Assembly (NCBI GenBank): GCA_029582155.1
Contig: CM055899.1
Span: forward strand, 58,321,349 to 58,385,348
Length of the DNA: 64,000 nt
Source: Panopea generosa
Lineage: Eukaryota; Mollusca; Bivalvia; Adapedonta; Hiatellidae
Reading direction: 5' to 3'
The position numbers and the translations under genes are program-made. Under the pieces are notes generated by a model. The model saw only the letters and a program-made list of their open reading frames with translations. It had not been told where the DNA came from and searched no databases. This document shows, piece by piece, positions 4,038-63,170 of the stretch. Within the stretch, counting starts at the first letter, position 1. Each line of letters begins with the position of its first letter.

Positions 4038-4230
4038 GGTGGCGCCAAAGTCAAGTGGTCGTGTCACTGGGTTAGTATTCCACGGTCCCGAGTTTGATCC
4101 TCGGTCATGGCACTGGAAAGTATTTCCCACATGTCGCATAATTCGGTGTTGTACACCGCGCATGTGGGGTAAAAGAACCAGGGATACTTCTGGAGTGTAT
4201 TCTGAATTTTGCACTATTCTCCAATAATCT
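4038..4230 (+). mobile_element. tRNA-derived SINE-like element (degenerate)
   Basis: AAGTCAAGTGG near 4050 resembles a polymerase III box A and AGTTTGATCC near 4091 resembles a box B at tRNA-like spacing. A GC-richer body follows. The head (4038-4160) is missing from duplicon copy 2, but the tail from 4160 remains there. Assignment is tentative. Confidence 0.4.
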
Positions 4231-5065
4231 TATATGAAAATAACAGTCACCATAAATAACAATCACGAAGAACATAATGCGCACGCTTTGGGTTTGTACA
4301 CTAACCGCTGGATTGGAAGTTCTGGGAGCTACCTAAACTATTGCGCTCCCCATTATACTTGTAGTTAAGGCCTAACTTACATGACGGTAGGAAGATTTTT
4401 ACACCCAAGAAATTAGATCAGTGTAAATCGGTTGGGCATTAGATCTATTTCTGTTGAAAATGCATAGATCTATATAATTGTCATAATTTCTTTGTACATA
4501 TGAGAACATTTGACACATTTTCATAAGTTCTGTCAAATTTGAATGGCATTGGGTACTGCTTGATGATTCTTGGATACCGGACAAGGATTTCCGCGTATTA
4601 CTACCGGGTACGGAATTTTCATCATACACACCCTCCACGCGTTCATCTTACCCTGCTTTGGCGTTGGAACAATTGATGACGTGACGTATTGAAACATATG
4701 ACGTTGTATTTTTTTATTTGACGTATATTGAGAGTCGTTAAGTTGGACGTGTTCTCGAGTTTCTAATCGGTACTGTTCTGCTCTTGCGCTTGGTGATATT
4801 TTAATTCTAGACCTTTCCACACAATGTCATAGGTCAAATCATCATCAATATGCCTTACTCGATTTATTTGAATCTGATACTACTATAGATATAAAGCGAC
4901 ATTAAATAGATATAAAGCGACATAAAAATGTTTTCCCGCTGGAGATGAACAACGACCTCCGGAAAGAGAATCAAGCGCGAACAACTGCTCTATCGAGTAA
5001 TATTAACATCAACCGAACAGCCCTCGATTTCTACTTTAATTCTACTTTTAACAAGGGATCTCTGC

Positions 5066-5300
5066 GACGGATTGTTCAAATGTGCAGTCGACTAGTGACG
5101 GCCTGTCTCTCGCCGTTGAAGCCGTAGGTTCGAGCCTCAAGCGGTCCACAAACTCCATGGGAGAAAGAATACGATTTACTTGCGGAAGAAAAAGTGGTTC
5201 TACTCAGATTTATCTTGAGTTCTTCGTCAACTAATAAAACTGGATATGCAATACATAATCTGCCATTTGTTGAAAATGACGTTAAGCACAATTCAGGACC
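5066..5300 (+). mobile_element. SINE with tRNA-like head (duplicon copy 1)
   Basis: The head has box A-like GACTAGTGACGG and box B GGTTCGAGCCTC near 5128. The body (GTGGTTCTACTCAG, then ATAAAACTGGATATGC and TTGAAAATGACGTTAAGC) is the same 3' body as the SINEs at 27606, 34628, 41445 and 44229. The head is diverged from those, so this is an older copy or a head-swapped subfamily. Confidence 0.7.
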
Positions 5301-5539
5301 TCGGTGTAGACTGAACTTAAATCAACCTTGGAGTTTAACGTAAAATAAACCACACCCTCTACCCCACACAATATTATCATTATTATTAATGTTTACAGTC
5401 ATACACGTATATCAGTAAATTAAATCATGTGTCTGTGTAATATGCTATAAATAATGTATGTTAGTTTAATACAGTTAATATTTTCAATAAAAAAAAGTCA
5501 TAAAATTTATATATTATTTTTTTTTGTATTTTTTCACCT

Positions 5540-5625
5540 TCGCTGCGGTTTGAACATACGACATTCTGATCGACAATTCAGTGACAGTTGAAGGCGTATG
5601 CCACTGCGCCACTTTGGAGCCTAAT
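5540..5625 (-). mobile_element. tRNA-like element, antisense (duplicon copy 1)
   Basis: On the minus strand the sequence reads TGGCGCAGTGG, a perfect box A, then about 50 bp later TGTTCAAACC, a box B-like motif. It lacks a good acceptor stem and has a spacer too long for a functional tRNA, so it is read as a tRNA-derived repeat rather than a tRNA gene. Confidence 0.5.
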
Positions 5626-6089
5626 AATAATATAACAGTTAACACCTTTTAAAGTTGTTAGATCATGAAAGGGGCGTCATTCTAGTTGACCGGAACTGGA
5701 ATTAATTCATACGTTTGATATACGTATTATGCTATGCAAATTGTTGTAACCGACTGAAAGGTTTTGCTGGTGAGTATAAAATACCTCGAAATGTGTACAT
5801 AGCAACCATTTATATTTGGCGGTTTGCTAGTACAGCAGATAGCCTAGTTTTCAAATCCTCATAAATTTGAGGTGAACCCATCTAGTTGGATGTGGTTGCC
5901 CTACAATCGCCGGTCGTGGATGATTGAGCGCCCCTTTCACTGTCTTATCTCTATATTTCTTCTGTCTAATAAACTAACCTCCTTTTCTTGTGTTTGAAGA
6001 AACCGGTTTGATTCCATATTTTGGTAACAGGTTATTCTAACACTGGTATTTTTACATTTTTTTCTGCTAAATTTTCTTTCTTTATTTAC

Positions 6090-6606
6090 TGAGAGTCAAA
6101 CAATGTAGATGCAGAATGGGAGCCAAACATTGTACATGGAGATTGAGAGCCAAACAATGTAGATAGAGACTGAGAGCCAAACAATATATACGGAGACTGA
6201 GAGACAAACAATGTACATGGAACACTGAGATACAAACTATGTAGATGTAGACTGAGAGCCAAATAATGTAGATGTAGATTGAGAGCCAAACAATGTAGAT
6301 GTAGACTGAGAGCCAAACTATGTACATGGAGATTGACAGCCAAATAATATCGATGTAGACGGAGAGCCAAACAATATATACGGAGACTGAGAGACAAACA
6401 ATGTACATGGAACACTGAGATACAAACTATGTAGATGTAGCCTGAACGTCAAACAATGTAGATGGAGACTGAGAGCCTAACAAAGTATATGAAGACTGAG
6501 AGCCAAACAATGTAGATGTAGACTGAGAGCCAAATAATGTAGATGGTGACTGAAAGTCAAACAATGTAGCTGAAGACTGATAGCTAAACTATGTAGATGT
6601 ACACTG
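6090..6606 (+). repeat. 27-bp minisatellite family A, about 19 copies
   Basis: Same unit as 1298-2972 and the same position in the duplicon. Its last units (AGCTGAAGACTGATAGC and onward) are identical to the last units of copy 1, while the interior has been lost or never expanded. Array length therefore changed after the duplication. Confidence 0.95.
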
Positions 6607-6787
6607 AGCACGTGGAATTGTTTGTCAATGTATAACGCAATGTAGTGTTTACTTAGATATAGTTATTGTCTAAAGAAAATGACGGCATCAATATAGTTTT
6701 TGCGGTTAGCTTGTACAGCAAATAGCTTAGCTTTGAAATACTCAGTAAGTCTAGTGGGGTGTTGTTATCTTACAATTGCTACAATCG

Positions 6788-7245
6788 GACTTAGACCAGG
6801 AACCAGGGGGTCAAAATGGTAGTACCCGAAAGTAGTTCCATAGAAAATTGACAGTGGTCGTTCAAGATGGTGTGAGTGTGAAAATCCACTTGACAGGGAC
6901 TATTGCAATGTGAATTTGTGAAGGGAATATATTTTCCCAGAGAATGGTGCAAAATTGAGTGGACTGGTAGCTTTAACACACAGATGGGACTATTTCTTAG
7001 ACGGTAAGAATTTTGCATAATTTGGCTGATTTGACCTCTGTATGTGAAATAGGGACATCTACTTTCGCTTTGAGCAAAATTGTGAAATTGGAAGCAATTA
7101 ATGCCCATCTTTTTAACTGTTTTTTTTGTGTTCTGCTTGAATTGAATATTAATTCTGGAAAATCTCAATGAGTTTGGAGTACAACTGTGTGACAGTCTAT
7201 TCTGCTAATATTACGGTCTATGTGAAATTAATGGTGGTCCAGCAT
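6788..7245. mobile_element. 458-bp insertion, duplicon copy 2
   Basis: Counterpart of 3158-3618, flanked by the same CAATCG duplication (6782-6787 and 7246-7251). Differences from copy 1 are a few substitutions and a shorter T run near 7120. Confidence 0.75.
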
Positions 7246-8368
7246 CAATCGCCGGCCGTGGATGATTGAGCGCCTTTTACTGTCTCTTTCTATCTTTCAT
7301 ATGTCTCATAAAGTAACTGCCTTTTCTTTTGTTTGAACAAATACGTTTGAGTCCATATTTACTGTTGAGTTCAAAGTTTGGTAACTGGTTATTCTAACAC
7401 ACTAGCTTTTATTATCCTGGTCTTATTTCAGTAGTTTTTAATGCTAAATTATTTTTATTGCCTGAGAGCCAAGCATGTGGGGTAAAAGAACCAGGGATAC
7501 TTCTGGAGTGTATTCTGAATTTTGCACTATTCTCCAATAATCTTATATAAAAAAAACAGTCACCATAAATAAAATCACGGAGAATATAATGCGCACGCTT
7601 TGGGTTTGTACACTAACCGCTGGATTGGAAGTACTGGGAGCTACCTAAACTATTGCGCTCCCCATTATACTTGTAGTTAAGGCCTAACTTACATGACGGT
7701 AGGAAGATTTTTGCGCCCAAGAAATTAGATCAGTGTAAATCGGTTGGGCATTAGATCTATTTTTGTTGAAAATGCATAGATCTATATAATTGTCATAATT
7801 TCTTTGTACATATGAGAACATTTGACACATTTTCATAAGTTCTGTCAAATTTGAATGGCATTGGGTACTGCTTGATGATTCTTGGATACCGGACAAGGAT
7901 TTCCGCGTATTACTACCGGGTAAGGAATTTTCATCATACACACCCTCCACGCGTTCATCTTACCCTGCTTTGGCGTTGGAATAATTGATGACGTGACGTA
8001 TTGAAACATATGACGTTGTATTTTTTTATTTGACGTATATTGAGAGTCGTTAAGTTGGACGTGTTCTCAAGTTTCTAATCGGTACTGTTCTGCTCTTGCG
8101 CTTGGTGATATTTTAATTCTAGACCTTTCCACACAATGTCATAGGTCAAATCATCATCAATATGCCTTACTCGATTTATCTGAATCTGATACTACTATAG
8201 ATATAAAGCGACATTAAATAGATATAAAGCGAAATAAAAATGTTTTCCCGCTGGAGATGAACAACGACCTCCGGAAAGAGAATCAAGCGCGAACAACTGC
8301 TCTATCGAGTAATATTAACATCAACCGAACAGCCCTCGATTTCTACTTTAATTCTACTTTTAACAAGG

Positions 8369-8600
8369 GATCTCTGCGACGGATGGTTCAAATGTGCAGT
8401 CGACTAGTGACGGCCTGTCTCTCGCCGTTGAAGCCGTAGGTTCGAGCCTCAAGCGGTCCACAAACTCCATGGGAGAAAGTATACGATTTACTTGCGGAAG
8501 GAAAGTGGTTCTACTCAGATTTATCTTGAGTTCTTCGTCAACTAATAAAACTGGATATGCAATACATAATCAGCCATTTGTTGAAAATGACGTTAAGCAC
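8369..8600 (+). mobile_element. SINE with tRNA-like head (duplicon copy 2)
   Basis: Duplicate of the SINE at 5066-5300, with GGTTCGAGCCTC near 8431 and the GTGGTTCTACTCAG body. A few substitutions separate the two copies. Confidence 0.7.
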
Positions 8601-8844
8601 AATTCAGGACCTCGGTGTAGACTGAACTTAAATCAACCTTGGAGTTTAACGTAAAATAAACCACACCCCTTACCCCACACAATATTATCATTATTATTAA
8701 TGTTTACAGTCATACACGTATATCAGTAAATTAAATCATGTGTCTGTGTAATATGCTATAAATAATGTATGTTAGTTTAATACAGTTATTTTTTTTAATA
8801 AAAAAAGTCATAAAATTTATATATTATTTTTTTTTGTATTTTTT

Positions 8845-8931
8845 CACCTTCGCTGCGGTTTGAACCTATACCATTCTGATCGACAATTCAGTGACAGTTG
8901 AAGGCATATGCCACTGCGCCACTTTGGAGCC
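8845..8931 (-). mobile_element. tRNA-like element, antisense (duplicon copy 2)
   Basis: Duplicate of 5540-5625, with box A TGGCGCAGTGG on the minus strand. The box B region is slightly changed from copy 1. Confidence 0.45.
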
Positions 8932-9335
8932 TAGTAATAATATAACAGTTAACACCTTTTAAAGTTGTTAGGTTATGAAAGGGGCGTCATTCTAGTTGAC
9001 CGGAACTGGAATTAATTCATACGTTTGATATACGTATTATGCTATGCAAATTGTTGTAACCGACTGAAAGGTTTTGCTGGTGAGTATAAAATACCTCGAA
9101 ATGTGTACATAGCATCCATTTATATTTGGCGGTTTGCTACAACAGCAGATAGCCTAGTTTTCAAATCCTCATAAATTTGAGGTGAACCCATCTAGTTGAA
9201 TGTGGTTGCCCTACAAATGCTACAATCGCCGGTCGTGGATGATTGAGCGCCCCTTTCACTGTCTTATCTCTATATTTCTTCTGTCTAATAAACTAACCTC
9301 CTTTTCTTATGTTTGAAGAAATCGGTTTGATCATT

Positions 9336-12243: not shown

Positions 12244-15200
12244 TTTATATATGTACATGGTTTGGCTCTCAGTCTATATGTACATGGTTTGGCTCTCAGT
12301 CTATATGTACATGGTTTGGCTCTCAGTCTTTATGTACATGGTTTGGCTCTCAGTCTATATATGTACATGGTTTGACTCTCAGTCAATATGTACATGGTTT
12401 GACTCTCAGTCTATATATGTACATGGTTTGGCTCTCAGTCTATATATGTACATGGTTTGGCTCTCAGTCTATATATGTACATGGTTTGACTCTAAGTCTA
12501 TATATGTACATGGTTTGACTCTCGATCTATATATGTACATGGTTTGGCTCTCAGTCAATATGTACATGGTTTGGCTCTCAGTCTATATATGTGCATGGTT
12601 TGACTCTCAGTCTATATATGTACATGGTTTTGCTCTCAGTCTATATGTACATGGTTTGGCTCTCGGTCTTTATATGTACAAGGTTTGGCTCTCAGTCAAT
12701 ATATGTAAATGGTTTGGCTCTCAGTCTTTATAAACATAGTCTAGCTCTCAGTCTATATGTTCATGGTTTGGCTTTCAGTCTATATATGTACATGGTTTGG
12801 TTCTCAGTCTATATATGTACATGGTTTGGCTCACAGTCTATATAAACATAGTTTAGCTCTCAATCTTCATGTACATGGTTTGGCTCTTAGTCTATATGTA
12901 CTGATTTGACTCTATATTCCTGTACATGGTTAAACTCTCAGTCTATATGAACATGGTTTGGCTCTCAGTCAATATGTACATTGTTTGGCTCTCAGTCTAT
13001 ATATGTACATGGTTTGGCTCTCAGTCTATATAAACATGGTTTGTCTCTCAATCTTCATGTACATGGTTTGGCTCTAAGTCTATATGTACTGATTTGACTC
13101 TATCTTCCTGTACATGGTTAAACTCTCAGTCTATATGAACATGGCTTGGCTATCAGTCTATATGAACATGGTTTGGCTCTCAATCTTCCAGTACATGGTT
13201 TGGCTCCTAGTGTTCCTGTACATTGTTTGGCTCTTAGTCTTCCTGTACATGGTTTGACTCTCAGTCTTCCTGTACATGGTTTCGCTCTCAATCTTCCAGG
13301 ACATGGTTTAGCTCTCAGTCTTCCTGTACATGGTTTGGCTCTCAATCTTCATGCATATGGTTAGGCTCTCAGTCTATATGTACATGGTTTGGAACTCAGT
13401 CAATATGAACATGGTTTGGCTTTCAATATTCATGTACATAGCTTGGCTATCAGTCTTTATGCACATGGTTTGGCTCTCAATCTATATGTACATGGTTTGG
13501 CTCTAAGTCTATATATGTACATGGTTTTGCTCTCAATCTATATGTACATGGTTTGGCTCTCAGTTAATATGTACATGGTTTGACTCTCAGTCCATATATG
13601 TACATGGTTTGGCTCTCAGTCTATATGTACATGGTTTTGCTTTCAATCTATATGGACATGGTTTTGCTCTCAGTCTTCCAGTACATGGTTTGGTTCTCAG
13701 TATATATGGACATGGTTTGGCTCTCAGTCTTCCAGTGCATTGTTTGGCTCTCAGTATATCTGTACATAGTTTGGTTCGCAGTCTTTCTGTACGTGGTTTG
13801 GCTCTCAATCTTCATGTAGATGGTTTGGCTCTCAGTCTTCCTGTACATGGTTTGGCTCTCAATCTTCATGTAGATGGTTTGGTTCCCAGTCTATATGTAC
13901 ATAGTTTGGCTCTCAATCTTCATGTATATGTTTTGGCTCTCAATCTTCCTGTACATGGTTTGGCTCTCAGTCTATATGTACATGGTTTGGCCCTAAGTCT
14001 ATATGTACATGGTTTGACTCTCAATCTTCCTGTAGATGTTTTGGATCTCAATCTTCCTGTATATGGTTTGGCTCTCAGTCTATATGTACATGGTTTGGCC
14101 CTAAGTCTATATGAACATGGTTTGGCTCTCAATCTATATGGACATGGTTTGGCTCTCAATCTTCCAGTACATGGTTTGGCTCTCAGTCTATATGGACATG
14201 GTTTGGCTCTTAGTCTTTCAGAACATTGTTTGGCTCTCAATCTATATGTACATAGTTTGGTTCGCAGTCTTCCTGTACGTGGTTTGGCTCTCAATCTTCA
14301 TGTAGATGGTTTGGCCCTTAGTCTATATGTACATGGTTAGGCTTTCAGTCTTCCTGTACATGGTTTGGCTCTATATCTTCATGTAGATGGTTTGGCTCCA
14401 AGTCTATATGTACATGGTTTGGCTATCAATCTTCCTGTAGATGTTTTGGCTCTCAATATTCCTGTATATGGTTTGGCTCTCAGTCTATATGTACATGGTT
14501 TGGCCTGAAGTCTATATGAACATGGTTTGGCTCTCAATCTATATGTACATGGTTTGGTTCTCAGTCTATATGTACATGGTTTGGCTCTCAATATTCCTGT
14601 ACATTGTTTGGCTGTCAGTCTATATGTACAGGGTTTCGCTCTCAATCTTCCTGTACATGTTTTGGCTCTCAATCTTCCTGTACATGGTTTGGCTCTCAGT
14701 CTATATGTACATGGTTTGGCTTTCAGTCTATATATGTACATGGTTTGGCTCTCAGTCTATATGGACATGGTTTGGCTCTCAGTCTTCCTGTACGTGGTTT
14801 GGCTCTCAATCTTCCTGTACATGGTTTGGCTTTCAATCTTCCTGTACATTGTTTGGTTGTCAGTCTATATGTACATGGTTTGGCTCTCAATCTATGTGGA
14901 CATAGTTTGGCTCTCAGTCTTCCAGTAAATGGTTTGACTCTCAGTCTATATGGACATGGTTTGGCTTTCAGTCTTTCAGTACATTGTTTTGCTCTCAATC
15001 TATATGAACATAGTTTGGTTTGCAGTCTTCCTGTACGTGGTTTGGCTCTCAATCTTCATGTAGATGGTTTTGCCCTTAGTCTATATGTACATGGTTAGAC
15101 TCTCAGTCTTCCTGTACATGGTTTGGCTCTCAATCTTAATGTAGTTGGTTTGGTTCCCAGTCTATATGTACATGATTTGGCTCTCAATCTTCCTGTTGAT

Positions 15201-18200
15201 GTTTTTGCTCTCAATTTTCCTGTACATGGTTTGGCCCAAAGTCTATATGTACATGGTTTGGCTCTCAATCTATATGTACATGGTTTGGTTCTCAGTCTAT
15301 ATGTACATGGTTTGGCTCTCAATCTTCCTGTACATGGTTTGGTTCTCAGTCTATATGTACATGGTTTGGCTCTCAATCTTCCTGTACATGGTTTGGCTCT
15401 CAGTCTATATGTACATGGTTTGGCTCTCAATCTATGTGGACATAGTTTGGCCCTCAGTCTATATATGTACATGGTTTGGCTCTCAATCTATATGTACATG
15501 GTTTGGCTCTCAGTCTATATGTACTTGGTTTGGCTCTCAGTCTATATGGACATGGTTTGGCTCTCAGTCTTCCAGTCGTGGTTTGACTCTCAGTCTATAT
15601 GGACATGGTTTGGCTCTCAGTCTTTCAGTACATTGTTTGGCTCTCAATCTATATGTACATAGTTTGGTTCGCAGTCTTCCTGTACGTGGTTTGGCTTTCA
15701 ATCTTCATGTATATGGTTTGGCCCTTAGTCTATATGTACATGGTTAGGCTTTCAGTCTTCCTGTACATGGTTTTGCTCTCAATCTTCATGTAGATGGTTT
15801 GGCTCCAAGTCTATATGTACATGGTTTGGCTCCTAATCTTCCTGTAGATGTTTTGGCTCTCAATTTTCCTGTATATGGTTTGGCTCTCCGTCGATATGTA
15901 CATGGTTTGGCCCTTAGTCTATATATACATGGTTTGACTCTCAGTCTATATGTACATGGTTTGGCTCTCAATATTTCTGTACATGGTTTGGCTCTCAGTC
16001 TATATGTACATGGTTTGGCTCTCAGTCTATATGTACATGTTTTGGCTCTCAATCTTCCTGTACATGGTTTGGCTCTCAGTCTATATGAACATGGTTTGGC
16101 TCTCAATCTTCCTGTACATGGTTTGGCTCTCAGTCTATATGTACATGGTTTAGCTCTCAGTCTATATGTACATGGTTTGGTTCTCAGTCTATATATAAAT
16201 GGTTTAGCTCTCAGTCTATATGTACATGGTTTGGCTCTCAGTCTAAATGTACATGATTTGGTTCTCAGTCTATATGTACATGGTTTGGCCCTAAGTCTGT
16301 ATGAACATGGTTTGGCTCCCAACCTATATGTACATGGTTTGGTTCTCAATCTTCCTGTAGATGTTTTAGCTCTCAATCTTCCTGTATATGGTTTGGCTCT
16401 CAGTCTATATGTACATGGTTTGGCCCTAAGTCTATATGAACATGGTTTGGCTCTCAATCTTTATGTACATGGTTTGGTTCCCATTCTATATGTACATGGT
16501 TTGACTTTCAATATTCCTGTACATGGTTTGGCTCTCAGTTTATATGTACATGGTTTCGCTGTCAATCTTCCCGTACATGTTTTGGCTCTCAATCTTCCTG
16601 TACATGGTTTGGCTCTCAGTCTATATGTACATGGTTTGGCTATCAATCTATATGTACATGGTTTGGCTTTCAGTCTATATATGTACATGGTTTGGCTCTT
16701 AGTCTATATGTACATGGTTTGGTAATCAATCTATATGGACATGGTTTGGCTCTCAGTCTATATGTACATGGTTTGGCTCTCAATCTATATATACATGGTT
16801 TGGCTCTCAGTCTATATGTACATGGTTTAGCTCTCAATATATATGGACATGATTTGGCTCTCAGTCTTCCAGTACATGGTTTGGTTCTCAGTCTATATGG
16901 ACATGTTTGGCTCTCAGTCTTCCAGTACATTGTTGGCACTCAATCTATATATACATAGTTTGGTTCGCAGTCTTCCTGTACATGGTATGGCTCTCAATCT
17001 TCATGTAGATGGTTTGGCCCTTAGTATGTATGTACATGGTTAGACTCTCAGTCTTCCTGTACATGGTTTGGCTCTCAATCTTCATGTAGATGGTTAGGCT
17101 CCAAGTCTATAAGTACATGAATTGGCTCTCAATCTTCCTGTAGATGTTTTTGCTCTCAATCTTCCTGTATATGGTTTGGCTCTCATTCTATATGTACATG
17201 GTTTGGCCCTAAGTCTATATGTACATGGTTTGGCTCTCAATCTATATGTACATGGTTTGGTTCTCATTCTATATGTACATGGTTTGGCTCTCAATCTTCC
17301 TGTACATGGTTTGGCTCTCAGTCTATATGTACATGGTTTGGCTCTCAATCTTCCTGTACATATTTTGGCTCTCAATCTTCCTTTACATGGTTTGGTTCTC
17401 AGTCTATATGTTCATGGTTTGGCTCTCAATCTATATGTACATGGTTTGGCTTTCAGTCTATTTATGTACATGGTTTGGCTCTCAATCTATGTGGACATGG
17501 TTTGGCTCTCAGTCTTCCAGTACATGGTTTGACTCTCAGTCTATATGGACATGGTTTGGCTCTCAGTCTTTCAGTAAATTGTTTGGCACTCAATCTATAT
17601 GTACATAGTTTGGTTCGCAGTCTTCCTGTACGTGGTTTGGCTCTCAATCTTCATGTAGATGGTTTGGCCCTTAGTCTATATGTACATGGTTTGGCTTTCA
17701 ATCTTCCTGTACATGGTTTGGCTCTCAATCTTCATGTATATGGTTTGGCTCCCAGTCTATATGTACTTGGTTTGGCTCTCAATCTTCCTGTAGATGGTTT
17801 TGCTCTCAATCTTCCTGTATATGGTTTGGCTCTCAGTCTATATGTACATGGTTTGGCCCTAAGTATATATGTACATGGTTTGGCTTTCAATCTATATGTA
17901 CATGGTTTGGTTCTCAGTCTATATGTACATTGTTTGGCTCTCAATCTTCCTGTACATGGTTTGGCTCTCAGTCTATATGTACATGGTTTGGCTCTCAATC
18001 TTCCTGTACATGTTTTGGCTCTCAATCTTCCTGTACATGGTTTGGCTCTCATTCTATATGTACATGGTTTGGCTCTCAATCTGTATGTACATGGTTTGGC
18101 TTTCAGTCTATATATGTACATGGTTTTGCTCTCAGTCTATATGTTCATGGTTTGGCTCTCAATCTACATGGACATGGTTTGACTCTCAGTCTATATATGT

Positions 18201-19893
18201 ACATGGTTTGGCCCTCAATCTATATGGACATGGTTTGGCTCTCAGTCTATATGTACGTGGTTTGGCTCTCAATCTCTATGGACATGGTTTTGCTCTCAGT
18301 CTTCCAGTACATGGTTTGGCTCTCAGTCTATATGGACATGGTTTGGCTTTCAGTCTTTCAGTAAATTGTTTGGCTCTCAATCTATATGTACATAGTTTGG
18401 TTTGCAGTCTTCCTGTACGTGGTTTGGCTCTCAATCTTCATGTAGATGGTTTGGCCCTTAGTCTATATGTACATGGTTAAGCTTTCAGTCTTCCTGTGCA
18501 TGGTTTGGCTCTCAATCTTCATGTATATGGTTTGGCTCCAAGTCTATATGTACATGGTTTGGCTCTTAATTTTCCTGTAGATGTTTTGGCTCTCAATCTT
18601 CCTGTATATGGTTTGGCTCTCAGTCTATATGTACATGGTTTGGCCCTAAGTCTATATGTACATGGTTTGGCTTTCAATCTATATGTACATGGTTTGGCTC
18701 TCAGTCTATATGTACATGGTTTGGCTCTCAATCTTCCTCTACATGGTTTGGCTCTCAGTCTATATGTACATGGTTTGGCTCTCAATCTTCCTGTACATGT
18801 TTTGGCTCTCAATCTTCCTGTACATGGTTTGGCTCTCAGTCTATATGTACATGGTGTGGCTCTCAATCTATATGTACATGGTTTGGCTTTCAGTCTATAT
18901 ATGTACATGGTTTGGCTCTCAGTCTATATGTACATGGTTTGGCTCTCAATCTATATGGACATGGTTTGACTCTCAGTCTATATATGTACATGGTTTGGCT
19001 CTCAATCTATATAGAAATGGTTTGGCTCTCAGTCTGTATGTACGTGATTTGGCTCTCAATCTATATGGACATGGTTTTGCTCTCAGTCTTCCAGTACATG
19101 GTTTGTCTCTCAGTCTATATGGACATGGTTTGGCTCTCAGTCTTTCAGTACATTGTTTGGCTCTCAATCTATATGTACATAGTTTGGTTCGCAGTCTTCC
19201 TGTACGTGGTTTGGCTCTCAATCTTCATATAGATGGTTTGGCCCTTAGTCTAGATGTACATGGTTAGGCTTTCAGTCTTCCTGTGCATGGTTTGGCTCTC
19301 AATCTTCATGTATATGGTTTGGCTCCAAGTCTATATGTACATGGTTTGGCTCTTAATTTTCCTGTAGATGTTTTGGCTCTCAATCTTCCTGTATATGGTT
19401 TGGCTCTCCGTCTATATGTACATGGTTTGGCCCTAAGTCTATATGTACATGGTTTGGCTCTCAATCTATCTGTACATGGGTTGGTTCTCAGTCTATATGA
19501 ACATGCTTTGGCTCTCAATCTTCCTGTAGATGGTTTGGCTCTCAGTCTATATGTACATGGTTTGGCTCTCAATCTTCCTGTACATGTTTTGGCTCTCAGT
19601 CGTTCTGTACATAGTTTGCCTCTCAGTCTATATGAACATGGTTTGGCTCTCAATCTTCCTGTACATGGTTTGTCTCTCAGTCTATATGTACATGGTTTAG
19701 CTCTCAGTCTATATGTACATGGTTTGGCTCTCAATCATCCTGTACATGGTTTGGCTCTCAGTCTATATGTACATGGTTTGGTTCTCAGTCTATATGTAAA
19801 TGGTTTGGCTCTCAGTCTATATGTAAATGGTTTGGCTCTCAATCTTCCTGTACATGGTTTGGCTCTCAGTCTATATATACATGGTTTGGCTCA
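12244..19893 (-). repeat. 27-bp minisatellite family A, inverted, about 283 copies
   Basis: Plus-strand units read GGTTTGGCTCTCAGTC plus TATATGTACAT; the reverse complement is the GACTGAGAGCCAAAC unit of 1298-2972, so the array is the same family in the opposite orientation. Most units are 27 bp. A 29-bp variant with an extra TA dominates the first 600 bp and shifts the reading frame. From about 13600 the array has higher-order structure: a marker group, TTCGCAGTCTTCCTGTACG with its neighbours, recurs near 13769, 14248, 15009, 15662, 16959, 17610, 18391 and 19180 (spacings about 480-790 bp, one double). Long open frames on both strands are repeat artefacts. Confidence 0.97.
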
Positions 19894-27605: not shown

Positions 27606-27820
27606 TAGTCCTTCATGGCCGAGTGGTGTAAGGCGTTGTCTCAAGATCGCTTAGCCTGTCACCGCTAAGGTCGTACGTTTGAGTCCTGCTCGCTCCGAAA
27701 ACTTCATGTGAGAAAGTTTCCAGTTAATTGCGGAAGGACGGTGGTTCTACTCAGTATGACTCAGTCTACCAGTAAAACTGAATATGCCATATACAACCTG
27801 AAATGTGTTGAAAATGACCA
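27606..27820 (+). mobile_element. tRNA-derived SINE, type 1 (Ser/Leu-like head)
   Basis: Head GTCCTTCATGGCCGAGTGG has a box A, then CTCAAGATC and a box B-like CGTTTGAGTCC. The body reads GGACGGTGGTTCTACTCAG and ends CTGAAATGTGTTGAAAATGA. It is a full-length plus-strand member of the family whose head is amplified at 34806-38963. Confidence 0.85.
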
Positions 27821-29415: not shown

Positions 29416-29735
29416 ACAACAGGTCCGGTTCGATATTTGACAATGTCGGTATACATTTACAGGAGTTATGGCCCCTATTCTACTTAATTTACGGTATAAT
29501 TCACCAACATATAGCGAAGACATCCGTATTTTATGTATTACGTCTAGTTCTTATATAAAACGTAAAACGTATATTATGCAAACAAAATACATACTGGCAA
29601 TACACAAAAAGAAAGATACATGACAGACAATACACGAACCTACAGACAAGTTTTAATCTGTTTGAATCTTTATTATACCTACAGAGTTCAATAATTTAAT
29701 ACAGCATCAATTGTGTTTACACGTTTATAGATTAT

Positions 29736-32700
29736 ACTGACAATGCTTGTTATTGTAACAATACTGACAATGCACGTTATTGTAACAATACTGACAAAGC
29801 ATGTAACAATACTGACCATGCATGTTATTGGAACAATAGTGAAAATGTACGTTATTGTAAAAATAGTGACAATGTACGTTATTGTAACAATACTGACAAT
29901 GCATGTTATTGAAAAAAATACTGACAATGCATGCTGTTGTAATAATGCTGACAATGCATGTTATTGTAACAATACTGACCATGCATGATACTGTAACGAT
30001 ACTGATCAAGCATGTTGTTGTAACGATACCGACCATGTATGTTGTTGTAAAAATACTGACAATGCATGCTGTTGTAATAATGCTGACAATGCATGTTATT
30101 GTAACAATACTGACCATGCATGTTATTGTAAAAATACTGACAATGCATGCTTTTGTAATAATGCTGACAATGTACGTTATTGTAACAATACTGACAATGC
30201 ATGTTATTGTAACAATACTGACAATGCATGTTATTGTAACAATACTGACCATGCATGTTATTGTAACAATACTGACCATGCATGTTATTGTAAAAATACT
30301 GACAATGCATGCTTTTGTAATAATGCTGACAATGTACGTTATTGTAAAAATACTGACAATGCATGCTATTGTAATAATACTGACCATGCACGTTATTGTA
30401 TAAATATTGACATATTATTATAACGATACTGACCATGCATGTTATTATAACACTACTGACCATGCATGTTATTGTAATAATACTGACAATGCATGTTATT
30501 GTAACGATACTGACCATGTATGTTATTGTAACGATACTGACCATGCATGTTATTGTAACAATACTGACAATGCATGTTATTGTAACGATACTGCCCATGT
30601 ATGTTGTTGTAACAATAATAACAATGCATGTTTTTGTAACAATACTGACCATGAATGTTGTTGTAACAATACTGACAATGTATGATATTGTAACAATACT
30701 GACAATGCATGTTATTGTAAATATACTGACCATGCATGCAACACTACTGAACATGCATGTTATTGTAACAATACCGACCATGCATGTTATTGTAACAATA
30801 CTGACAATGCATGCTATTGTAACAATACTGACAATGCATGTTGTTGTAACACGACTGACAATGCATGTTATTTTAACAATACTGGCCATGCATGTTATTG
30901 TCATGATAATGACCATGCATGTTGCTGTCACGATACTGACCAAGCCTGTTATTCTAACGATACTGACCATGCATGTTATTGTAACGATACTAAGCATGCA
31001 TCTTATTGTAACGATACTGACAATACATCTTATTGTAACGATACTGACAATACATATTATTGTAACGATACTGACCATGCATGTTATTATAACAATACTG
31101 GCCATGCATGTAATTGTAATGATACTGACAATGCATGTTATTGTAACGATACTGGCCATGCATGTTATTGTAACGATACTGCCCATGTATGTAATTGTTA
31201 CAAGACTGACAATGCATGTTATTTTTTAACAATACTGGCCATGCATGTTATTGTAACAATACTGACAATGCATGTTATTGTAAAAATACTGAGCTGACCA
31301 TGCATGTGATTGTAACAATACTGACCATGCATGTAACAATATTGAACATGCATGTTATTGTAACAATACCGACCATGCATGTTATTGTAACAATACTGAC
31401 AATGCATGCTATTGTAACATTACTGACAATGCATGTTGTTGTAACACGACTGACAATGCATGTTATTTTAATAATACTGGCCAAGCATGTTATTGTCATG
31501 ATATTGACAATGCATGTTATGGTAAAAATACTGAGCTGACCATGCATGTGATTGTAACAATACTGACCATGCATGTAACAATATTGAACATGTATGTTAT
31601 TGTAACAATACCGACCATGCATGTTATTGTAACAATACTGACAATGCATGCTATTGTAACATTACTGACAATGCATGTTGTTGTAACACGACTGACAATG
31701 CATGTTATTTTAATAATACTGGCCAAGCATGTTATTGTCATGATATTGACAATGCATGTTATGGTAAAAATACTGAGCTGACCATGCATGTTGTTGTAAC
31801 GATGATGACCATGCATGTTGTTGTAACGATACTGACCATGCCTGTTATTCTAACGATACTGACCATGCATGTAATTGTAACGATACTAAGCATGCATCTT
31901 ATTTTAACGATACTGACAATACATGTTATTGTAACAATACTGACAATGCATGTTATTGTAACAATACTGACCATGCATGTAACAATAATGACCATGCATG
32001 TTATTGTAACAATACTGACCAAGTATGTTGTTATAATAATACTGATCATGCATAATATTTTAACAATACTGACCATGAATGTTATTGTAAATATACTGAC
32101 CTGACTGTGCATGTTATTGTAACGATACTGACCATGCATGTTATTGTAACGATACTAACCATGCATGTTATTGTAACGATACTGACAATGTATGTTATTT
32201 TAACAATACTGACCACGCATGCGACAATACTGACCATGCATGTTATTGAAACAATACTGACCATGCATGTTATTGTAACGATTCTGACTTTGCATGATAC
32301 TGTAACGATACTGATCAAGCATGTTGTTGTAACGATACCGACCATGTATGTTGTTGTAACAATACTGACCATGCATGTTGTTGTAACGATACTGACCATG
32401 CATGATATTGTAACGATACTGACCATGTATGTTGTTGTAACGATACTGACCATGCATCATATTTAAACGATACTGACCTTGCATGTTGTTGTAATAATAC
32501 CGACCATGCATGATATTGTAACGATACCGGCAATGCATGTTATTGTAACGATACTGACCATGCATGTTATTGTAACGATACTGACCATGCATGTTGTTGT
32601 AACGATACTGACAATGTATGTTATTGTAACGATACTGACCATGCATGCTATTGTAACAATACTGACCTTGCATGTTATTGTAACAATACTGACCATGCAT

Positions 32701-33420
32701 GTTTTTGTAACGATACAGAATGATATTGACCATGCATGTTTTTGTAACTATACTGACCATGCATGCTATTGTAACAATACTGACAATGCATGTTATTGTA
32801 ACAATACTATCCATGCATATTTTTGTAACGAAACTAACAATGCACGTTATTGTAACAATACTGACAATGCACGTTTTTGTCTCAATAATGACAATGTATG
32901 TTATCGTTACAATACTGACAATGCATGATATTGTAACAATACCCACCACGCATATTATTTCAACAAAACTGATTTTCCATGTTATTGTAACAATACTGAC
33001 AATGCATGTTATTGTTAGAAACTGACCATGCATGTTATTGTAACAATACTGACATTGCATGTTATTTTAACGAAACTGACCATGCATGTAATTGTTACAA
33101 TACTGACATTGCATGTTATTGTAACGAAACTGACCATGCATGTTATTGCAACAATACTGACTATACATGTTATTGTAATAATATTGACCATGCGTGTTAT
33201 TGCAACAATATTGACTATACATGTTTGTGTAACAATACTGACAATGCATGTTATTGTTAGAAACTGACCATGCATGTTATTGTAACAATACTGACCATGC
33301 ATGTTATTGCAACAATATTGACTATACATGTTTTTGTAACAATACTGACATTGCATGTTATTGTAACGAAACTGATTATACATATTTTTGTAACAATACT
33401 GACCATGCATGTTATTTTAA
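29736..33420. repeat. 27-bp minisatellite family B, about 136 copies
   Basis: Units combine TTATTGTAACAATACTGA with CCATGCATG or CAATGCATG. Each unit holds two palindromes: ATTGT-A-ACAAT (5-bp arms, one-base loop) and ATGCAT or CATGCATG. A 241-bp higher-order unit starting ACTGAGCTGACC recurs at 31288, 31529 and (start only) 31770. The sequence is open in several frames on both strands (for example YCNNTDHAC), but this follows from the 27-bp period. Confidence 0.96.
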
Positions 33421-34493: not shown

Positions 34494-34627
34494 CTTACTT
34501 AGACCACAGTCACGTTCACAAGGAACATTCTGTTTGGAAATAAAAATATGTATTTATTTAAAGTTTGTTATAAATTTGACGATAAGATTTCAAGTGAAAA
34601 AAATTGATACATCTTATATACATTTTA

Positions 34628-37600
34628 AGGGGGTTTAACGCCTTTTTTAACATATTCCAGGTTATCTATGGCATATCCAGATTTACTGGTTGAGGAAGAC
34701 CTCAGATTGAGACAGACTGAGTAGAACCACCGTCCTTCCGCAAGTAACTGGACACTTTCTCACGTAAAGTCTTTGGAGCGAACGTGACTCGAACCTATGA
34801 CCTTAGCGGTGAGAGGTAAGTAATCTTGAGACGGCGCCTTAGACCACTCGGCCACGGAGGACCTGGTGAGAGGTAAGTGATCTTGAGACGGCGCCTTAGA
34901 CCACTCGGCCACGAAGGACCTGGTGAGAGGTTAATAATCTTGAGACGGCGCCTTAGACCACTCGGCTACGAAGGACCTGGTGAGAGGTAAATGATCTTGA
35001 GACGGCGCCTTAGACCACTCGGCCACGAAGGACCTGGTGAGAGGTAAATGATCTTGAGACGGCGCCTTAGACCACTCGGCCACGAAGGACCTGGTGAGAG
35101 GTAAATGATCTTGAGACGGCGCCTTAGACCACTCGGCCACGAAGGACCTGGTGAGAAGTAAATGATCTTGAGACGGCGCCTTAGACCACTCGGCCACGAA
35201 GGACCTGGTGAGAGGTAAATGATCTTGAGACGGCGCCTTAGACCACTCGGCCACGAAGGACCTGGTGAGAGGTTAATAATCTTGAGACGGCGCCTTAGAC
35301 CACTCGGCCACGGAGGATCTGGTGAGAGGTAAATGATCTTGAGACGGCGCCTTAGACCACTCGGCCACGAAGGACCTGGTGAGAAGAAAATGATCTTGAG
35401 ACGGCGCCTTAGACCACTCGGCCACGAAGGACCTGGTGAGAGGTTAATAATCTTGAGACGGCGCCTTAGACCACTCGGCCACGAAGGACCTGGTGAGAGG
35501 TAAATGATCTTGAGACGGCGACTTAGACCACTCGGCCACGAAGGACCTGGTGAGAGGTAAATAATCTTGAGACGGCGCCTTAGACCACTCGGCCACGGAG
35601 AACTTGGTGAGAAGTAAGTGATCTTGAGATGGCGCCTTAGATCACTCAACCACGGCGGAGCTGGTGAGATGTAAATGATCTTGAGACGGCGCCTTAGACC
35701 ACTCGGCCACGAAGGACGTGGTGAGAAGTAAGTGATCTTGAGACGGCGCCTTAGACCACTCGGCCACGAAGGACCTGGTGAGAGGTAAATGATCTTGAGA
35801 CGGCGCCTTAGACCACTCGGCCACGAAGGACCTGGTGAGAGGTAAATGATCTTGAGACGGCGCCTTAGACCACTCGGCCATGAAGGACCTGGTGAGAGGT
35901 TAATAATCTTGAGACGGCGCCTTAGACCACTCGGCCACGGAGGACCTGGTGAGAGGTAAATGATCTTGAGACGGCGCCTTAGACCACTCGGCCACGAAGG
36001 ACCTGGTGAGAGGTAAATAATCTTGAGACGGCGCCTTAGACCACTCGGCCACGGAGGATCTGGTGAGAGGTAAATGATCTTGAGACGGCGCCTTAGACCA
36101 CTCGGCCACTGAGGACCTGGTGAGAAGAAAATGATCTTGAGACGGCGCCTTAGACCACTCGGCCACGAAGGACCTGGTGAGAGGTTAATAATCTTGAGAC
36201 GGCGCCTTAGACCACTCGGCCACGGAGAAACTGGTGAGAAGTAAATGATCTTGAGACGCGCCTTAGACCACTCGGCCACGAAGGACCTGGTGAGAGGTAA
36301 ATGATCTTGAGACGGCGCCTTAGACCACTCGGCCACGAAGGACCTGGTGAGAGGTTAATAATCTTGAGACGGCGCCTTAGACCACTCGGCCACGGAGAAA
36401 CTGGTGAGAAGTAAATGATCTTGAGACGCGCCTTAGACCACTCGGCCACGAAGGACCTGGTGAGAGGTAAATGATCTTGAGACGGCGCCTTAGACCACTC
36501 GGCCACGGAGGACCTGGTGAGAGGTAAATAATCTTGAGACGGCGCCTTAGACCACTCGGCCACGGAGAACCTGGTGAGAAGTAAGTGATCTTGAGATGGC
36601 GCCTTAGATCACTCAACCACGGCGGAGCTGGTGAGAGGTAAATGATCTTGAGACGGCGCCTTAGACCACTCGGCCACGAAGGACGTGGTGAGAAGTAAGT
36701 GATCTTGAGACGGCGCCTTAGACCACTCGGCCACGAAGGACCTGGTGAGAGGTAAATGATCTTGAGACGGCGCCTTAGACCACTCGGCCACGGAGGACCT
36801 GGTGAAAGTAGGTGATCTTGAGACGGCGCCTTAGACCACTCGGCCACGGAGGACCTGGTGAGAGGTAAATAATCTTGAGACGGCGCCTTAGACCACTCGG
36901 CCACGGAGAACCTGGTGAGAAGTAAATGATCTTGAGATGGCGCCTTAGATCACTCAACCACGGCGGAGCTGGTGAGAGGTAAATGATCTTGAGACGGCGC
37001 CTTAGAACACTCGGCCACGAAGGACGTGGTGAGAAGTAAGTGATCTTGAGACGGCGCCTTAGACCACTCGGCCACGAAGGACCTGGTGAGAGGTAAATGA
37101 TCTTGAGACGGCGCCTTAGACCACTCGGCCACGGAGGACCTGGTGAAAGTAGGTGATCTTGAGACGGCGCCTTAGACCACTCGGCCACGGAGGACCTGAT
37201 GAGAGGTAAATGATCTTGAGACGGCGACTTAGACCACTCTGCCGCGGAGGACCTGGTGAGAAGTAAGTGATCTTGAGACGGCGCCTTAGACCACTCGGCC
37301 ACGGAGGACCTGGTGAGAGGTAAATGATCTTGAGATGGCGCCTTAGATCACTCAACCACGGCGGAGCTGGTGAGAGGTAAATGATCTTGAGACGGCGCCT
37401 TAGACCACTCGGCCACGAAGGACCTGGTTAGAAGTAAGTGATCTTGAGACGGCGCCTTAGACCACTCGGCCACGAAGGACCTGGTGAGAAGTAAGTGATC
37501 TTGAGACGGCGCCTTAGACCACTCGGCCACGGAGGACCTGGTGAAAGTAGGTGATCTTGAGACGGCGCCTTAGACCACTCGGCCACAGAGGACCTGGTGA

Positions 37601-38965
37601 GAGGTAAATGATCTTGAGACGGCGACTTAGACCACTCTGCCACGGAGGACCTGGTGAGAAGTAAGTGATCTTGAGACGGCGCCTTAGACCACTCGGCCAC
37701 AGAGGACCTGGTGAGAAGTAAATGATCTTGAGACGGCGACTTAGACCACTCTGCCACGGAGGACCTGGTGAGAAGTAAGTGATCTTGAGACGGCGCCTGA
37801 GACAACTCGGCCACGGAGGACCTGGTGTGAGGTAAATGATCTTGAGACGGTGACTTAGACCACTCGGTCACGGAGGACCTCGTGAGAAGTAAGTGATCTT
37901 GAGACGGCGCCTTCGACCACTCGGCCACGGAGGACCTGTTGAGAAATAGGTGATCTTGAGACGGCGCCTTAGACCACTCAGCCAATGAGAACCTGGTGAC
38001 AGGTAAGTGATTTTGAGACGGTTCCTTAGACAAGTCGGCCACGGAGGACCTGGTGAAAGGTAAATGATCTTGAGACGGCGCCTAAGACCACTTGGCCACG
38101 AGCAGGACCTGGTGAGAGGTAAATGATCTGGAGACGGCGCCTTAGACCACTCGGCCAATGAGAACCTGGCGACAGGTAAGTGATCTTGAGACGGCGCCTT
38201 AGACAACTCGGCCACGGAGGACCTGGTGAGAGATAAATGATCTTGAGACGGCGCCTTAGACCACTCGGCCACGGAGGACCTCGTGAGAGGTAAATGATCT
38301 TGAGACGGCGCTTTATACCACTCGGTCACGGAGGACCTGGTGACAGGTAAGTGATCTTGAGACAGCAACTTAGACAACTCGGCCATGGAAAACCTGGTGA
38401 AAAGTAGGTGATCTTGAGACGGCGCCTTAGACCACTCGCCACGGAGGACCTGGTGACAGGTAAATGATCTTGAGACGGCGCCTTAGACCACTCGGTCACG
38501 GAGGACCTGGTGACAGGTAAATGATCTTGAGACAGCAACTTAGACAACTCGGCCATGGAGAACCTGGTAAGAGGTAAATGATCTTGAGACGGCACCTTAG
38601 ACAACTCGGCCATTGAGGACCTGGTGAGAAGTAAATGATCTGAAGACAGCGCCCTAGACCACTCGGCCACAGAGGACCTGGTGAGAGGTAAATGATCTTG
38701 AGACGGCACTTTAGACAACTCGGCTGTGGAGGACCTGATGAGAGGTAAATGATCTTAAGACAGCGCCTTATACCACCTGGCCACGGAGGACCTGGTGAGA
38801 GGTAAATGATCTTAAGACAGCGCCTTAGACCATTCGGTCACGGAGGACCTGGTGAAAGGTAAATGATCTTAAGACGGCGCCTTAGACCACTCGGCCACGG
38901 AGGACCTGGTGAGAGGTAAGTGATCTTGAGACGGCGCCTTAGACCACTCGACCACGGAGGACCCG
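34628..38965 (-). mobile_element. Type 1 SINE with head amplified into a 4.2-kb array
   Basis: The minus strand reads a type 1 SINE: heads from 38963 down to 34806, one box B (AGGTTCGAGTCAC near 34792), the body with GGACGGTGGTTCTACTCAG near 34735-34717, and a tail ending GGCGTTAAACC near 34635. CATTTTA lies on both sides (34621-34627 and 38966-38972), consistent with a 7-bp target duplication around the entire structure. This supports a single SINE insertion followed by expansion of its head in place. Confidence 0.8.
34806..38963 (-). repeat. 57-bp array of tRNA-like SINE heads, about 73 copies
   Basis: Each unit, read on the minus strand, contains GTGGCCGAGTGGTCTAAG (a perfect polymerase III box A), GCGCCGTCTCAAGATC and a CTCACCAGGTCC junction. 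A unit spans the 5' end of the SINE through its anticodon-arm region and stops just before box B. Only the unit next to the SINE body keeps a box B. Units at 34.86-37.7 kb are nearly identical, those at 37.7-38.9 kb carry more changes. At 57 bp (19 codons) frames such as AEWSKAPSQDHLPLTRS stay open, but these are artefacts. Confidence 0.97.
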
Positions 38966-38972
38966 CATTTTA

Positions 38973-41444: not shown

Positions 41445-41660
41445 TGTCCTCCGTGGCCGAGTGGTCTAAGACGATGTCTCAAGATTACTTATCCTCTCAC
41501 CGCTAAGGTCGTAGTTTCGAGTCCCGCTCGCTCCAAATAACTTTATTTGCCAGTTACTTGCGGACGGACGGTGGTTCTACTCAGATTCATTGTGTGCTAT
41601 TTCTCCAACAATATAAAGGATATGTCATTATACATAACCTGAAATGTGTTGAAAATGAGA
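41445..41660 (+). mobile_element. tRNA-derived SINE, type 1, full length
   Basis: Head GTCCTCCGTGGCCGAGTGG, box B-like AGTTTCGAGTCCC, body GGACGGTGGTTCTACTCAG, and tail CTGAAATGTGTTGAAAATGA. Closest full-length plus-strand relative of the expanded copy at 34.6-39.0 kb. Confidence 0.85.
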
Positions 41661-43705: not shown

Positions 43706-44228
43706 AGAAATTAACATATTAAACTAAATTGGCTATAATGTGTATAATACAATGTAATCAAGGTTATTCGATACATCTCTTTCATATATTATGATATATT
43801 TTAGACATAAGGTAACACTGTTTTTCTTTTTATGGGCTGTGCATGTAGCACCCAATTCTGCTCAGATGCCAACAAAGCACATTTTGCACAGCCACCTGGT
43901 TGTGGTTATTTGATTGTCCTTGACATTATGCAAATTAAATGACACAAATTTCAATATAATGCCATTGATTAATTATAAAACTAGTAGTGTGTAATAATGC
44001 TAAATCTAATAAAATGTATACTAACATACTTACTAACATGTCTTATCGTTTCGTTCTCCACGGCAGATAACTCCCCGTTTCTCTAAATTATATGCATGCC
44101 TCGGTTATTGTTCTTTATAAGATTTATTTTGCTAATTGATATTTAACTTAATTTTATAAAAGATAAAAACTAACTATCAATACAAACAAATTTGATGACA
44201 TATTATTTCGGTCTGTGTTTCATGTTTT
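43706..44228. other. Non-coding, no recognised feature
   Basis: AT-rich unique sequence. No gene or repeat recognised. Confidence 0.5.
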
Positions 44229-44434
44229 CAGGTTATATATGGCATATCCAATTTTATTGGTGGAAGAAGACGTCAGACCAATTCAGACTGAGTAGAACCA
44301 CCGTCCTTCTGCAAGTTACTGGACACTTTCTCACATAAAGTTTTTGGAGCGAGCGGGACTCGAACCTACGACTTTGTTGGTGAGAGTTAAGTGATCTTGA
44401 GACGGCGCCTTAGATCACTCGGCCACTGGTGACT
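44229..44434 (-). mobile_element. tRNA-derived SINE, type 1, antisense
   Basis: CTGAGTAGAACCACCGTCC (body), GCGGGACTCGAACCTACG (box B, reverse) and TTAGATCACTCGGCCA (box A, reverse). A single head is present, showing the unexpanded form of the element at 34.6-39.0 kb. Confidence 0.85.
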
Positions 44435-58871: not shown

Positions 58872-60155
58872 TTATCTGGCACACCGTGTTATATGGCTAT
58901 ACTCCAGCACACTGTGTTACATTGCTATTGCAGCATACTGTGTTACACTGGTTTATGTAACACACTGTGTTACATTTCTATGTGTGGTACACCATGTATC
59001 TTTGCTATATCTAGCACACTGTGTTACATTACTAATGTAGCATACAGTGTTACATTGCTATATAATATCACATTGTATTACATTTATATATTTACATTGT
59101 CATAACTAGCACATTGGATATACACTGTATTACACCGTTACAACTAGCAAACTGTATTTTATGGCTATATCTAGCTCAGTATGTTACATTGCTATATCTG
59201 CGATAACGTTTTACACGGATGTATCTAGTACATTGCGTTATATTGGTAGTTACTGTGTGGCATTCTGGGTTACATTGTGATATCTGGAACACTGTGTTAC
59301 ATAGCTTTATCTTGCACACCGTGTTATGCGGATATATCTAGCAGACATTGTTACATTACTATTGTAGCATACGGTGTTATATTGGTATTTGTAGCACACT
59401 GTGTTATATTACTATATCTGTGACACTGCGTATCAAATATATATCTAGTATATTGCGTTATATTAACAGTGTGGCAGACTGTGCTACATTGTTATATCTA
59501 TAACACTGTGTTACAAAGCTATATCTGGCACACCGTGTTATGCGGATATATCTATCAGACTATGTTGCATTGCTATTGTAGCATGCTATGTTACATTGCC
59601 AGTTGTGGCACACTGTGTTACGTAGCATTATCTAGCACATTGTATTACATATGATACAGTATGTTTCACTGTTTTATCTAGCACATTGTGATACATGGTT
59701 ATATCTAGTATATTTTGTTACTTTGCTATTGTAGCATTCTGTGTTACATTGCTATATTTAGCACACTGTATTACATCTGGTACACTGTTACATTGTTATA
59801 TCTAGCATACTTTGTTACATAGCTATATCAAGTACACTGTATTACACGTATGTTCATACTTTTAGCATACTGTGTTAGATTGCTATATTTATCATCCTGT
59901 CAAAAGTTGCTATATCTAACACACTTTGTAAATGACTATATCTGGTACATTGCTTATTCTAACACACTGCGTTACCATATGATAGCCATACTCGTGATAC
60001 ATAACTACATGTAGCACACCGTATTGCATTGTTATAAACAAGCAAAGTGTGGTACATCGTTATGTCTCATTAACTTACTGTACAGCCAGGATATAACTAG
60101 AATATTATATTGCATTGCTAGATCTAGCATTCAATGTTAGCTGTCATATTGTATA
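58872..60155 (+). repeat. 27-bp minisatellite family C, left arm, about 47 copies
   Basis: Units read TGTGTTACATTGCTATATC plus TAGCACAC with many substitutions and small indels. The order of variant units mirrors that of the right arm, so the whole arm, not single units, was duplicated and inverted. About 150 bp near 59520-59680 is absent from the right arm. Confidence 0.9.
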
Positions 60156-62059: not shown

Positions 62060-63170
62060 TATGGCAGCTAACTCTATATGCTAGATATAGCAATGCAATA
62101 TAATATTCTAGTTATATCCTGGCAGTACAATAAGTTAGGTAACACACTTTGCTTGTTTATAACAAAGCAATACGGTATACTACATCTAGTTATGTATCAC
62201 ATGTATAACTACCATACAATAACGCAGTGTGTTAGAATTAGCAATGTACCAGCTATAGTCATGTACAACGTGAGTTATATATAGCAACGTTTGTCAGGAT
62301 GATAAATATAGCAATGTAACACAGTATGCTAGACAAATGAACGTAAATGTAAAACAGTGTACTTGATATAGCCATGTAACAAAGTATGCTAGATATAACA
62401 ATGTAACAGTGTACCAAATGTAATACAGTGTGCTAAATATAGCAATGTAACACAGAATGTTACAATAACAAAGTAACACAATGTACTAGATATAACCATG
62501 TAATACAATGTGCTGGATAAAGCTATGTAACACAGTTTTATAGATATAACAATGTAATACAGTCTGCCACACTGTTAATATAACGTAATGGACTAGTTAT
62601 ATTCGTGCAGCGCGGTGTCGCAGATATAGCAATGTAACACAGCGTGCTACAATTAGCATTATAACACCGTATGCTATAATAGCAATGTAACAATGTTTGC
62701 TAGATATATCCGTATAACACGGTGTGCCAGATATAGCTATGTAACACAGTGTTCTAAATATCACAATGTAACCAAGTATCAATATTACACAGTGTACTAG
62801 ATATATCCGTGTAACACGTAATCGACGATAAAGAAAGCAATGTAACATAGTGAGCTAGATATAGCCATAAAATGCAGTTTGCTAGTTGTAACGATGTAAT
62901 AGTGTATCAGATGAAACCAATGTGCTAGTTATGGCAATGTAAATCAGTGAGCAAGATATATAAATGTAATACAATGTGATATTATATAGCAATGTAACAC
63001 TGTATGCTACATTAGTAATGTAACACAGTGTGCTAGATATAGCAAAGTAACATGGTGTACCGCACATAGAAATGTAACACAGTGTGTTACATAAACCAGT
63101 GTAACATAGTATGCTGCAAAAGCAATGCAACAAGGTGTACTGGAGTATAGCCATGTAACACACTGTGCCA
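62060..63170 (-). repeat. 27-bp minisatellite family C, right arm, about 41 copies
   Basis: The reverse complement of 58872-60155, with GATATAGCAATGTAACACAG as the plus-strand form. It is shorter by about 150 bp than the left arm owing to an internal deletion. Confidence 0.9.

Follow-up and report, generated by a model that had tools for sequence, protein, structure and literature searches.

The head array and its anatomy

How does one SINE come to stand behind 73 tandem copies of its own tRNA-like head, and do the repeated box A sequences serve a purpose? The locus that raises these questions lies on contig C6 (58.3 Mb of 87.0 Mb) of the 1.47-Gb genome of Panopea generosa; the stretch of 64,000 nucleotides that was analyzed is referred to here as the window. 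On the minus strand, positions 34628 to 38965 of the window are taken up by 73 head units, each of 57 bp, with a single SINE body after them. TRF, run on the 64-kb window, reported an array at 34808 to 38963 (minus strand) with a period of 57, 73.0 copies, and a score of 6628, and cyclic alignment likewise gave 73 units, 54 of them distinct, with a mean pairwise identity of 0.900. The 57-bp unit corresponds to SINE positions of about 1 to 57 and comprises the SINE start, box A, an anticodon-like region, and the stretch ahead of box B. The 5'-most unit, with the SINE start CGGGTCC, is located at 38907 to 38965 (minus strand), and the head nearest the body continues into the SINE body and tail, i.e., the terminal unit reaches the SINE terminus. 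The body (34628 to 34807, minus strand) begins immediately 3' of the head breakpoint, ends with the GGCGTTAAACCCC tail, and contains, as read from the sequence, the sole box B-like match seen at the locus, GGTTCGAGTCA at 34785 to 34795 (minus strand); inside the array, no box B match was detected with two mismatches allowed. Based on general knowledge, we take TGGCCGAGTGG to be box A and GGTTCGAGTCA to be box B. The motif CATTTTA is present at 34621 to 34627 on the 3' side and at 38966 to 38972 on the 5' side. Thus, the anatomy described in the first-pass annotation, with about 73 tandem units each made of the 5' part of a SINE, a complete body with box B at one end only, and CATTTTA on both sides, was confirmed.

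Within the array, mean mismatches to the consensus decrease from the 5' third (4.42) over the middle (3.04) to the body end (2.36). Recurring blocks of several units were seen by eye, and none of the lags from 1 to 19 units was prominent across the whole array. ARAGORN and Rfam made no call within the window, and the three long open reading frames of the window had matches only below the Pfam cut-offs or none. The window also contains a local duplication of ~3.3 kb (2462 to 6012 and 6090 to 9331), which aligns in two pieces with 93% and 97% identity, and minisatellites with a 27-bp period at 1295 to 2978, 6088 to 6608, 12248 to 19892, 29734 to 33420, 58879 to 59776, and 62417 to 62772, the units of which differ between arrays, with one unit occurring on both strands.

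The SINE family from which the units derive

By its structure, with box A and box B in a tRNA-like head, a 3' tail, and a putative 7-bp target-site duplication, the body-end element is classified as a tRNA-derived polymerase III SINE; we take its tail motif to be reminiscent of those of molluscan SINEs. The window contains three single-head members of the same family, at 27608 to 27814 (plus strand), 41446 to 41655 (plus strand), and 44226 to 44426 (minus strand), with 78 to 87% identity to the body-end SINE; the match of the last begins at query position 16, leaving its start unmatched. These are the copies that had been noticed near 27606, 41445, and 44229. Body-only pieces were found at 5107 to 5285 and 8419 to 8596, and each copy of the ~3.3-kb local duplication has a SINE body fragment.

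Genome-wide, a first look gave 6,343 SINE candidates, of which some may be array units. Scoring 40 of these 6,343 candidates yielded 40 near full-length matches, including that of the window itself, and 70 matches to array units. All seven single-copy relatives have A-rich tails and target-site duplications of 12 to 13 bp (six exact and one with one mismatch). The SINE body in the window differs by 8.0 to 8.5% from the nearest young family copies.

The 7-bp duplication around the window array is short for this family, and its score was reached by 5.3% of 342 mismatched flank pairings, so that CATTTTA is weak by itself as a target-site duplication. Among 12 array loci tested, three (L025, L036, and L038), which are enclosed by exact target-site duplications of 10, 11, and 12 bp, exceeded the 99% null, while the window reached 7 bp and eight, including the sister copy L019 on C6, had no convincing target-site duplication.

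Copies of the array on C6

The right flank of the array occurs five times on C6 at a spacing of 73 to 109 kb, i.e., in the window, in three copies with 94% identity, and in one with 78% identity; a further match, the sixth, spans 69 bases on C12. Judged by this flank, a segment of 73 to 109 kb in the region C6:58.07-58.44M has been amplified in tandem to five copies. The array is present at one common boundary in all five right-flank copies, and we found no empty site, as none of the five lacks the array. The CATTTTA motif has base changes in three of the four other C6 copies.

The four copies that were measured contain 73 (window), 53, 62, and 77 units, while the fifth was read for 900 bases at its right edge only. 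Two of the sister copies, L020 and L021, have no SINE body, and because their arrays meet the left flank at different places, the body was probably lost in two separate deletions. We also compared units within and between arrays. A window unit differs on average by 1.33 mismatches from the nearest unit of its own array versus 2.44 to 3.71 for the nearest unit in the three sister arrays. Such closeness of the window units to each other is as expected if growth went on after the segment had been copied. Own-array closeness is weaker in the sister arrays, with own versus nearest sister values of 3.58 and 4.53 for L019, 3.35 and 3.53 for L020, and 2.44 and 3.65 for L021; among the 62 units of L020, 21 are nearest to another array, 18 are nearest to their own, and 23 are ties. 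The 5'-to-3' age gradient was absent in the three sister arrays measured.

Head arrays elsewhere in the genome

The window array is not unique in this genome. We identified at least 17 groups in which the head of this SINE is duplicated or arrayed, with evident segmental duplicates joined and groups with two or three heads counted. These groups are located at C3 6.49M; C5 69.0M and 70.7/72.1-72.3M; C6 22.95M, 58M, and 64M; C9 5.0M and 70.5M; C12 50.4/54.9M; C14 2.4M and 35.7M; C16 16.8M, 17.5M, and 60.4M; C17 24.0M; and C19 20.9M and 27.2M. They come from the matches listed in a series of head-junction pattern searches, in two of which 100 of 274 and 100 of 126 matches were listed; a narrower pattern, for which all 53 matches were listed, added no group. 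A single junction match at C1:38.44M stands outside the group count, and C5:41.45M, a false match with a single head, was dropped. The arrays have 2 to about 97 heads and periods of 47, 57, 61, 62, 65, 67, 72, 74, 77, and 78 bp, and several groups have a period (57, 62, or 72) in common.

The sequences of 15 of the 17 groups were fetched, i.e., all except C16 60.4M and C19 27.2M. In 14 of these 15 groups, at least one copy has a SINE body at its 3' end, although some bodies are truncated or damaged; the remaining group, C16 17.5M, ends at the edge of the fetched stretch before its 3' end. The box B stretch is gone from the bodies of L035, L039, and L042, and several body-end promoters are damaged. 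In a tree of 47 sequences including 18 array bodies, the groupings of array bodies are mainly those of segmental duplicates. The exception is the C3 body, which groups with the C5 70/72M bodies with a support of 0.984; the periods of these arrays differ (57 and 78), and the two groups may share ancestry. We note that the tree is nearly star-like and has little power. When ranked by distance, young single copies are the closest sequences for most array bodies.

Origin of the array

We propose that the array is a SINE-derived minisatellite that arose from a single-head insertion by DNA-level duplication and in-place growth, with no function needed or indicated, and we assign this reading a probability of roughly 0.8. 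The order of insertion, duplication, and expansion and the mechanisms of duplication and growth, as we infer them, would be as follows. A single-head SINE would have inserted by retrotransposition; a DNA-level tandem duplication would then have linked the 5' edge of the element to a point ~57 bp inside it, giving two heads and one body; and slippage or unequal exchange would have lifted the number of heads to 73. In this reading, the array is older than the amplification that gave C6 its five copies of the 73- to 109-kb segment, and the measured copies changed length independently thereafter. The evidence for birth in place and for local re-expansion is good: heads followed by one SINE body in 14 of the 15 fetched groups, the different lengths of the measured C6 copies, the closeness of the window units to each other and their age gradient, the TGAAA in the first junction at C14:35.72M, and the exact target-site duplications around L025, L036, and L038 speak for them. 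In particular, the proposal of the first-pass annotation that the minisatellite was born from a SINE head after insertion is supported by the boundary common to the five C6 copies and by the bodies of separate groups, which apart from C3/C5 mostly do not group. Our confidence in this reading is lower than it would otherwise be because the C3 and C5 70/72M bodies do group and because several body-end promoters are damaged. The short target-site duplication of the window, the eight array loci with no convincing one, the junctions that do not copy their flanks, the absence of the age gradient in the three sister arrays, the nearest-unit counts of L020, the periods common to several groups, and the lack of an empty site count against it as well.

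The SINE could instead have been two- or multi-headed already when it inserted, if reverse transcriptase had jumped to another template on reaching the RNA 5' end, with only the later growth occurring in place. This scenario would account for the grouping of the C3 and C5 70/72M bodies, for the CACC-AGGTCC junction that the window array has in common with the two-headed locus at C6:63.99M, and for the position of one junction side in most fetched arrays, which coincides with the SINE 5' end or misses it by no more than a few bases (an outcome favored by search patterns in which the SINE start was obligatory). Against it speak the 5'-most junction at C14:35.72M, which holds TGAAA, the same bases as the 5' flank; the unit at C16:60.36M, which begins inside the element; and the lack of grouping of most bodies in the tree. 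Moreover, a body-proximal promoter would be expected to yield a single-head RNA. We therefore consider a multi-headed insertion unlikely. C14:35.72M is the one locus with clear flank bases inside units: the window junction (CACC then AGGTCC) is not an exact copy of the flank (GCGGGTCC), and the junctions of L022, L025, and L028 likewise do not copy their own flanks. A further candidate for flank-derived filler, L035 (C6:22.95M), was dropped, as the filler also matches sequence past the SINE tail and may derive from another SINE.

The presence of head arrays elsewhere and the two C6 copies without a body might also suggest that a SINE fell into a pre-existing satellite. Yet, the unit is the 5' part of the SINE itself and is continuous with the body, the 6,343 first-look SINE candidates (some of them possibly array units) stand against at least 17 array groups, and the point at which the array meets the left flank differs between the two bodiless C6 copies, a pattern expected of deletions. 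Arrays without the SINE at many other loci, which had been named as the finding that would speak against an origin from the SINE, were not what we observed, given the body at the 3' end in nearly all fetched groups. Of all the explanations considered, a pre-existing satellite is the one to which we give the least credence. Birth in place by head duplication thus remains our preferred reading.

Repeated box A sequences and function

A dense row of box A sequences invites the idea that they recruit TFIIIC/TFIIIB or drive polymerase III transcription and have been kept for that. Consistent with such a role, the exact TGGCCGAGTGG is kept in 46 window units, as located with a fuzzy anchor, and box A is paired with box B once, at the body end. 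However, conservation of the box A columns is not consistent. Their mismatch is 4.9% versus 5.9% elsewhere in the window array, and 7.7 versus 9.5, 10.3 versus 8.9, and 8.7 versus 7.4 in the three sister arrays, i.e., lower than the rest in two of the four measured arrays and higher in two; the number of distinct variants per column is larger in box A in all four. Among 10 arrays examined, two (L035 and L041) had no match to the strict box A pattern, with L041 off by one late base. Moreover, the units of a 47-bp head array at C19:27213121-27214566 are without part of box A, and those of a 77-bp head array at C16:60358649-60359861 have both box A and box B. Because the columns are inconsistent and box A is damaged or box B included in other arrays, the multiplication of box A looks like a side effect of the site at which the duplication occurred. 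The functional role suggested for the box A array in the first-pass annotation is not borne out, and we regard it as very improbable. The two-box array at C16:60.36M offers a natural contrast to the window array for work on polymerase III.

Expansion of other parts of the SINE

Using exact-match patterns under a matched spacing rule, we obtained 126 junction matches for the head, 4 for the middle, and 1,345 for the 3' domain; these figures are junctions rather than loci, and the head pattern excluded most C6 58M arrays by design. A box B control gave 11 matches, of which 10 belong to a single array with both boxes in its units. The anchor pairs were present in similar numbers of SINE copies for the head (14/56), the middle (12/56), and the 3' domain (13/56), and in 8/56 for the box B region, in a sample made up of the copies in the fetched loci rather than drawn at random. 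Because the 3' domain gave 1,345 junction matches versus 126, the head does not rank as the chief source of arrays; as far as exact-match patterns can show, expansion affects the two ends of the SINE and hardly touches the middle. With these counts and the box B control, the idea that the head is a hotspot caused by polymerase III factors, which had been prompted by a 5' breakpoint at the SINE start and a 3' breakpoint ahead of box B, was dropped.

The first 100 of the 1,345 3'-domain matches form 22 clusters on C1 and C2. Among the matches listed, the 3'-domain arrays, of which L045 and L046 are examples, have periods of 48 to 90 bp. Of the 22 clusters, 12 contain the junction CTGACTCAGTCTGAGG, which in L045 differs from the sequence ahead of its first copy. 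Tentatively, the minisatellites made by the two ends could differ in their fates. The 3'-domain arrays, being part of the transcript, might spread with it, whereas head arrays precede the body-end promoter, so that transcription would not carry them along and every one of them would have arisen on its own. We hold this to be possible but rather doubtful; recurrent 4-base microhomology could alternatively be the source of the CTGACTCAGTCTGAGG recurrence. If the idea is true, head arrays count new minisatellite births in one genome.

Comparison with known SINE-derived satellites

The array illustrates clearly a known route from mobile elements to tandem repeats and shows no sign of function. A 2025 review (PMC12692304) lists SINEs among the sources of satellites. 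In the open-licence literature, narrow terms for SINE head arrays and for tRNA-gene replication stalling retrieved no paper, and head arrays with box A alone were not the subject of any of the titles and abstract openings listed. In a mollusk, the limpet Patella caerulea, PcH-sat is described as a tandem repeat related to a SINE (Nin-SINE), with a 179-bp monomer that is related to a 3' SINE portion, is given as being without box A and box B, and is mainly pericentromeric (PMC11121367). The family described here is likewise a SINE-related molluscan tandem repeat; unlike PcH-sat as described there, it consists of the 5' head and forms scattered arrays adjoining a SINE body.

The closest known counterparts are the SINE-derived satellites (sSats) of squamates, and the window array is of the same kind. 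As described by Vassetzky et al. in 2023 (PMC10702118), sSats consist of tandem units of ~70 to 290 nt from part of a SINE, the terminal unit is longer and extends to the SINE end, the origins are many and separate, and longer loci are more uniform; box B is part of the main snake unit. The window array resembles them in that its units derive from part of the genome's own SINE, with a terminal unit reaching the SINE end, and its 73 units are well above the four tandem units that are the minimum for an sSat. It differs from them in SINE family and organism and in its 57-bp unit with box A and without box B, and the subtelomeric preference of sSats, a tendency that does not define single loci, is not seen in it. 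That account does not decide whether sSats occur outside squamates. Our data show SINE-derived satellites in a further genome, in which arrays of one SINE with between 2 and about 97 heads lend themselves to comparisons of age, breakpoint, and size, and in which five segmental copies, four of them measured, represent paralogous length variants with a common boundary. They also correct a tempting functional reading of the repeated box A and place the array with the SINE-derived satellites known from squamates.
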